From Candidatus Acidiferrales bacterium (GTDB lineage Bacteria > Acidobacteriota > Terriglobia > Acidiferrales > UBA7541): a stretch of DNA of 64,000 nt. This document shows, in pieces, positions 41,393-41,622 of the stretch. The stretch is taken from positions 186,001-250,000 of the forward strand of contig DASYYH010000011.1 in the NCBI GenBank assembly GCA_035934015.1. Reading direction: 5' to 3'. A program made the translations under genes and the position numbers. How positions within the stretch are numbered: the stretch's first letter is position 1; each line of letters starts with the position of its first letter. Below the pieces are notes generated by a model. The model was not told where the DNA came from, did no database searches, and saw nothing but the letters and a program-made list of their open reading frames with translations.

Positions 41393-41469
41393 CGCGGGGT
41401 GGAGCAGCCTGGTAGCTCGTCGGGCTCATAACCCGGAGGTCGTTGGTTCAAATCCAACCCCCGCAACCA
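41393..41469 (+). tRNA. Initiator tRNA-Met (anticodon CAT)
   Basis: A 77-nt tRNA with encoded CCA. The acceptor arm CGCGGGG pairs with CCCCGC but leaves position 1 C opposite A at 72, the unpaired first base that marks bacterial initiator tRNA. The anticodon loop is CTCATAA and the anticodon stem has consecutive G-C pairs (GGG/CCC), a second initiator feature. The T arm GGTTCAAATCC is intact. Its 3' part and flank are repeated 121 bases downstream. Confidence 0.97.
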
Positions 41470-41501
41470 CTTCTCTTCCCCCAAGTTGATCCGCTTCGAA
41501 T
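41445..41501 (+). repeat. Direct repeat, copy 1: 3' part of tRNA-fMet plus flank
   Basis: 57 bases beginning GGTTCAAATCC within the tRNA T arm and running 32 bases past the tRNA end. They are repeated at 41566-41622 with three mismatches. Such duplications of a tRNA 3' end are the usual mark of integrase-mediated insertion. Confidence 0.8.
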
Positions 41502-41502
41502 G

Positions 41503-41528
41503 AGCCCGCACCGGGCTGACTTTTCTTT
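41503..41528 (+). terminator. Hairpin terminator after tRNA-fMet
   Basis: AGCCCG, loop CAC and CGGGCT form a perfect six-base-pair stem, followed by GAC and the T-rich TTTTCTTT. It lies 33 bases after the tRNA 3' end and between the two direct repeats. Confidence 0.5.
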
Positions 41529-41565
41529 GGCGCCGCTACGCGGCTGGGGCGGGAGGTCGTCAAGC

Positions 41566-41622
41566 GGTTCAAATCCAACCCCCGCAACCACTTTTCTTCC
41601 CCCAAGCTGATCCGCTTTGAAT
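41566..41622 (+). repeat. Direct repeat, copy 2: partial tRNA-fMet 3' end
   Basis: 54 of 57 bases match copy 1, including the T-arm, acceptor 3' strand and CCA. The 5' half of a tRNA is absent, so this is not a functional gene. It could be the second attachment site of a lost or eroded element, or a recombination product. Confidence 0.8.

Follow-up and report, generated by a model that had tools for sequence, protein, structure and literature searches.

In E. coli, the tyrT repeats are units that lie behind a tRNA and each contain the tRNA 3' end. Both these repeats and the rtT RNA are cited in PMC4986893. A duplicated tRNA end also results when an element integrates into a tRNA gene, since the restored gene and the displaced end are then found on either side of the inserted element; in Islander, the element between tRNA and fragment measures 2-200 kb, and islands with a 5' fragment are generally rare (159/3919) (PMC4383910). 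Fragments and pseudogenes of prokaryotic tRNAs have been described as well (PMC9897764).

Here we analyze a duplicated 3' end of the initiator tRNA (tRNA-fMet) in a 64-kb stretch of DNA (the window, meaning the whole stretch analyzed), in which the tail copy is part of a short module at 41500-41590. As in the tRNA-integrated genomic islands of the Islander type (PMC4383910), there is a complete tRNA with a displaced 3' fragment in the same orientation, and the gene is a real target in relatives; unlike those islands, the window has 64 bases between the copies, no integrase and a supposed island that lies outside the pair, and its arrangement is conserved across genera. Like prokaryotic tRNA fragments and pseudogenes (PMC9897764), the module is partial, non-canonical and unable to fold into a tRNA, but several genera carry it next to the same gene, with a hairpin spacer in common, and it follows the sequence of its host's own tRNA. 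As with the E. coli tyrT repeats and rtT, repeat units stand behind a tRNA, with two or more module units in some relatives; however, the module is on a different tRNA, contains a longer tRNA part and is decayed in many members. The rtT covariance model of Rfam had no match in 40900-45200.

Results

The initiator tRNA gene and its duplicated 3' end

ARAGORN made a single tRNA call in the 64-kb window, a tRNA-Met(CAT) at 41393-41469 on the + strand, whose initiator identity was read from the sequence as a C1:A72 mismatch and three G-C pairs at the foot of the anticodon stem. It is the only initiator gene among the 46 tRNA genes of the source genome, a draft assembly of 28 contigs and 3.37 Mb. 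The features of the locus are these:

41358..41387, + strand: predicted sigma-70-type promoter of tRNA-fMet (TTGACC-18-TATGAT), by consensus match only
41393..41469, + strand: tRNA-fMet (initiator), complete, CCA encoded
41470..41501, + strand: flank copy 1, pyrimidine-rich, repeated behind the tail copy (repeat comparison)
41500..41590, + strand: the module, a probable degenerate second tRNA-fMet copy that has no 5' acceptor strand and bears a hairpin inside its anticodon region; the module of the window, part of the training set, scores 76.4 bits with covariance model R1
41503..41517, + strand: hairpin A (AGCCCG-CAC-CGGGCT), then a T-rich tract to 41528; predicted intrinsic terminator
41532..41544, + strand: hairpin B (GCCGC-TAC-GCGGC), then GGGG at 41546-41549; relatives have a hairpin at the same position, also paired but with a different sequence
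41552..41590, + strand: tail copy, comprising the 3' anticodon stem/variable loop, T arm, 3' acceptor strand and CCA (repeat alignments)
41591..41622, + strand: flank copy 2, identical to flank copy 1 at 29/32 (repeat comparison)

The first-pass annotation of this DNA had described a 57-base repeat of the T arm, CCA end and 32 bases of flank, with three mismatches and a spacing of 121, and we found precisely this: 41445-41501 recurs at 41566-41622 with 54/57 identity and a start-to-start distance of 121, the repeated bases being the last 25 of tRNA-fMet and 32 of flank, and the two copies are separated by 64 bases (41502-41565). An alignment with one gap pairs 41435-41501 with 41552-41622 (71 bases, 88.7%), and since its E value within the 64-kb window is 5e-20, the repeat is not due to chance. 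The 5' half of the tRNA had been described as unrepeated. A faint 5' remnant is nevertheless there, plain only against relatives: the anticodon stem of the tRNA, TCGGGCTCAT, has a similar sequence, CCGGGCTGAC, at 41511-41520.

A third copy of the repeat, envisaged by the same annotation at the other border of an island to the right, turned up neither in the 64-kb window nor in the rest of the genome, and apart from the fMet locus the whole-genome search gave only a 76% match, to a tRNA-Pro gene. Scanning for tail copies behind all tRNA genes of the genome yielded just one other good candidate, at tRNA-Thr(CGT); thus, tail copies are not a general feature of this genome. The tRNA-Thr(CGT) copy (contig C11, outside the window) matches at 30/35, lies at +1105 downstream and is possibly a real integration scar. 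Two open frames on the minus strand are antisense to the tRNA, 41314-41511 and 41426-41755 (GLDLNQRPPGYEPDELPGCSTPR, GVGFEPTTSGL), and we take them to be the familiar spurious proteins read from tRNA genes.

Anatomy of the module

Behind tRNA-fMet in the window, no terminator other than hairpin A and its T tract is predicted, and the pattern of hairpin A had no match in the genome except the module itself. Although the prediction is weak on the terminator scan alone (1 found, with a mean of 0.9 in shuffles), hairpin A probably terminates the tRNA-fMet transcript, and this first hairpin of the window copy probably serves only as the tRNA terminator. The 5-pair stem of hairpin B in the window is not beyond chance (p 0.52); in relatives, single stems are often within chance for their GC content, and longer stems are beyond it. 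The consensus fold of the modules (RNAalifold) had a covariation term of nearly nil.

The T stem of the tail copy is broken by an insertion near 41561-41564, so the window copy is unable to make a tRNA. Neither ARAGORN nor the Rfam search called a tRNA within 41500-41590, and Rfam on 40.9-45.2 kb returned the tRNA only, plus one sub-threshold chance match. We also considered a small minihelix RNA of acceptor and T arm and rejected it, the pairing being lost in the window and in G076.

The module in other Terriglobia

We built covariance model R1 from nine aligned spacer-plus-tail sequences and searched 399 genomes of the class and 95 of the order, all comparisons being made on draft genomes. 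As tRNA genes themselves score about 31-35 bits with R1, only matches clearly higher were counted. The module was found in eleven other Terriglobia genomes, one of them from a second family. Besides the window, it lies directly behind tRNA-fMet in nine of the eleven: G037, of the same genus, G070, G076, G063, G071, G065, G016, G030 and, from the other family, G162. It stands away from fMet in G036 and G046. R1 recovered its training loci, and the matches in G036, G046, G037 and G162 and a further unit in G071 are independent of the training set. Two units are present in G065 and also in G071, where additional tail copies follow at a distance of 2 kb. In the R1 search, the majority of the family's genomes gave no module, and the pattern was absent from viral contigs. 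Conservation of the duplicated end and island genes in distant relatives had been named beforehand as the finding that would speak against a recent insertion; the duplicated end with its spacer does occur in other genera and a second family, but the island genes are not conserved there.

The tRNA sequence in the module runs from the D arm or anticodon stem onward and is split by a hairpin insert. The spacer has a shared order of hairpin A, T-rich stretch, hairpin B and GGGGCC. Its sequence GGGCTGnCATTTT...GGGGCC is common across genera, and hairpin B varies in sequence with its pairing kept in nearly every genome. In G162, GTAGCTCGTTGGGCT upstream of the insert is a 15-base exact match to that genome's own tRNA, from D arm to anticodon loop, and is followed by the insert with hairpin B and then by the remaining tRNA. 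A broken fMet copy in G044 retains the 5' half, has no anticodon arm and carries a hairpin in the T loop; G044 and G046 have further broken fMet copies upstream of the tRNA, and in G071 and G046 fMet copies are collapsed to two acceptor strands. Because most modules have no clear 5' acceptor strand, it is G162, G044 and the anticodon-stem similarity that carry the interpretation as a second tRNA copy.

The T-arm letters of the tRNA differ between genera, and, decayed positions aside, each module carries the allele of the tRNA in its own genome (CCAAC, CCGAC, CTGAC, CCAGC, CCACC). Of nine genomes tested, four (the window, G071, G065 and G030) repeat after the tail the flank that follows the tRNA, with a match better than any of 300 shuffles; in G037, G070, G076, G016 and G162 the distal flank is unlike the proximal one, and the distal flank of G162 resembles the flank after fMet in G071 and G016. 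Such a difference between distal and proximal flanks is the polarity that would be expected if insertions had brought new tails and flanks.

At two loci, L060 and L058, from two genera, a palindrome of the form CCTTC...GGGCTCAGGGCA(A/G)G sits exactly in the T loop of tail copies; it resembles a dispersed repeat.

Integration at tRNA-fMet in relatives

Using all 230 bases of the stretch as query, we searched 89 genomes of this family and extracted and oriented 58 loci. The upstream order pepA-smpB-secretin-two pilins-tRNA-fMet is common to many genera. In at least 10 relatives, long-range tail copies start at tRNA position 27-33 and lie 1.2-19 kb downstream in the extracted stretches (33 kb in G069, by listed coordinates), and in several of these relatives a tyrosine integrase adjoins the tRNA or the displaced copy; the long-range copies are ordinary integrated elements. 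Several other genomes have displaced 5' halves (positions 1-43), most of them then followed by closely similar sequence, which marks elements replacing the 5' half. In this Terriglobia family, elements have integrated often at the single-copy initiator tRNA gene, on both its 3' and its 5' side, which bears out the first-pass remark on an initiator gene of few copies serving as a target. Loci of this kind include L049, L068, L047, L082, L061 and L071. A 9.6-kb IMG/VR contig, L180, has a complete tRNA-fMet at 23-99 with a tyrosine integrase beside it and a 5' half (positions 2-40) at 9539-9577, and is apparently a whole element of the 5' type.

The short-range copies, including the window's, start near position 39-43 and lie mostly 76-130 bases behind the CCA. 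To their left is the two-hairpin spacer, whereas to the left of long-range copies there is unrelated element DNA.

In L043 and L046 (two genomes, one genus), a broken and an intact tRNA-fMet copy have a small GIY-YIG endonuclease gene between them, at 440-494 bases upstream of the tRNA. The GIY-YIG gene found between fMet copies in G044/G046 has no homologue at the window locus.

The neighboring region

The region to the right of the tRNA has these features:

41689-41772: local direct repeat, one of three of 75-84 bases that flank the RibD_C gene and the gene at 42805-43503
42370-42520: local direct repeat of the same set
42449-42698: YCII-domain gene remnant, matching the 3' part of the G039 YCII gene
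43525-43599: local direct repeat of the same set
44606-44797: sigma-factor gene remnant, whose complete form stands beside YCII genes in G039

The gene scraps and repeats that the first-pass annotation saw here are real, namely the sigma and YCII remnants and the 75-84-base direct repeats, as is its observation that no integrase is at the locus: none of the genome's seven integrase genes is near 41-45 kb, and the nearest, at C11:289801, is about 62 kb away beside other tRNAs. Its interpretation of the repeat as the border of an island at 41.6-45 kb is not supported, since this region lies right of both repeats, outside the pair, with no third copy and no nearer integrase. Because an element must lie between the tRNA copies, there would have to be a third copy near 45 kb for 41.6-45 kb to be the element, and the search of window and genome found no second fragment at that far border. 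What stands of the proposed integration footprint is that fMet is a real target in relatives (at least 10 displaced 3' halves, and integrases), but the repeat is very probably not the edge of 41.6-45 kb.

The relative most similar in this region is G039, with an AraC gene that is 93% identical. Its cluster holds AraC, part of RibD_C (dihydrofolate-reductase-like) and, corresponding to the sigma-factor piece, a complete sigma factor with two YCII proteins, and an FtsX-type transporter gene neighbors the RibD_C/AraC/YCII/sigma cluster; the window has an intact AraC gene, an intact RibD_C gene and a 64-residue sigma piece. To the right of a breakpoint at about 45.0 kb, the TPR and VPS10 genes (45-50 kb) keep the order they have in G039, where their neighbors are encapsulin and DyP-peroxidase genes. 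In the empty-site comparison, TPR-VPS10 stands beside encapsulin in G039, and the fMet locus is absent from the G039 assembly. The window's downstream genes were beside fMet in no relative, and downstream genes differ in every relative examined. Judged from the gene content, we read 41.6-45 kb as a rearranged, partly decayed chromosomal cluster (sigma factor/YCII/AraC) without a recognizable mobile element.

We also considered gene cassettes between the 75-84-base repeats (41.7-43.6 kb), and rejected them: the repeats are local, with one further related copy in G039 next to the same gene types, and look like within-cluster duplications.

Discussion

We favor, with moderate confidence, the interpretation that the module at 41500-41590 is a second initiator tRNA copy, now decayed, whose 3' end is the repeat and which recombination or repeated duplication keeps similar to the working gene. 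Given the broken copies in G162, G044, G071 and G046, short-range copies are best read as second tRNA-fMet genes at several stages of decay, and the similarity of the module to the resident tRNA extends beyond one short end (the 71-base alignment, the anticodon-stem remains and the 15-base match in G162). Second copies may have arisen by tandem duplication, or as displaced ends of long-gone elements, at a gene that remains in use as an integration site; losses (5' acceptor, D arm) and the gain of palindromes would have followed. The copies either arose independently in the individual lineages or are overwritten again and again through recombination with the working gene, and we favor overwriting because the spacer is shared. 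The genes right of the repeat would have arrived or decayed independently of it.

Because the fMet locus is a hot spot in relatives, some module units may be attachment-site scars, and the tail copy as a whole might be the displaced attachment-site half (attR) of an fMet-targeting integrative element deleted to about 60-80 bases, with the hairpins as its remains. The family's fMet gene is a frequent target of tyrosine integrases, distal flanks appear older than proximal ones in some genomes, and tRNA fragments are usually produced by integration (PMC9897764, PMC4383910). We nevertheless consider this origin unlikely, since real displaced halves start at position 27-33 after unrelated DNA and the short-range copies near 39-43 after the two-hairpin spacer, this spacer is common to several genera and a second family, and no module locus tested has a homologue of the fMet-type integrases. 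It is highly improbable that 41.6-45 kb arrived recently as an island through recombination at the tRNA, with the tail copy as its left edge and the right-hand copy lost: the downstream genes that differ between relatives and the TPR-VPS10 genes that in G039 adjoin encapsulin/DyP-peroxidase genes instead would fit such an entry, but the right-hand copy was not found, the genes match the ordinary RibD_C/AraC/YCII/sigma cluster of G039 and not phage or conjugation genes, and elsewhere the tail copy is present without these genes.

The module may have a function. We think it very unlikely that it yields a functional structured RNA of the kind processed from the tyrT repeats of E. coli (rtT). The pairing kept in hairpin B as its sequence varies across modules, and GGGCTGnCATTTT and GGGGCC shared across genera, would fit such an RNA; T arm, CCA and stems, however, are no longer intact in several members, the window among them, strong terminator-like hairpins separate the module from the tRNA in G071, G030 and G162, most family genomes have no module, and neither the RNAalifold covariation term nor Rfam, with its tRNA match only, speaks for it. 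We give little credence to a broader version, that the module is a conserved tRNA-derived element (structured RNA or recombination site) of the initiator tRNA locus in one Terriglobia lineage, whose hairpin sequence changes with pairing kept and whose tRNA part is continually rewritten from the resident tRNA.

If the module is a decayed second tRNA copy, a repeated tRNA tail need not mark an integrated element, as it usually does, but can be a pseudogene of long standing; the two are told apart here by where the copy starts in the tRNA, how far away it lies, its spacer and the presence of an integrase, at a single essential initiator tRNA gene that in one Terriglobia family is a heavily used integration site from both sides.

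In five genomes (loci L039, L044, L053, L059 and L064) the tRNA lies 0.2-11 kb from the pilin operon and in inverted orientation to it; thus, the fMet locus also suffers inversions.
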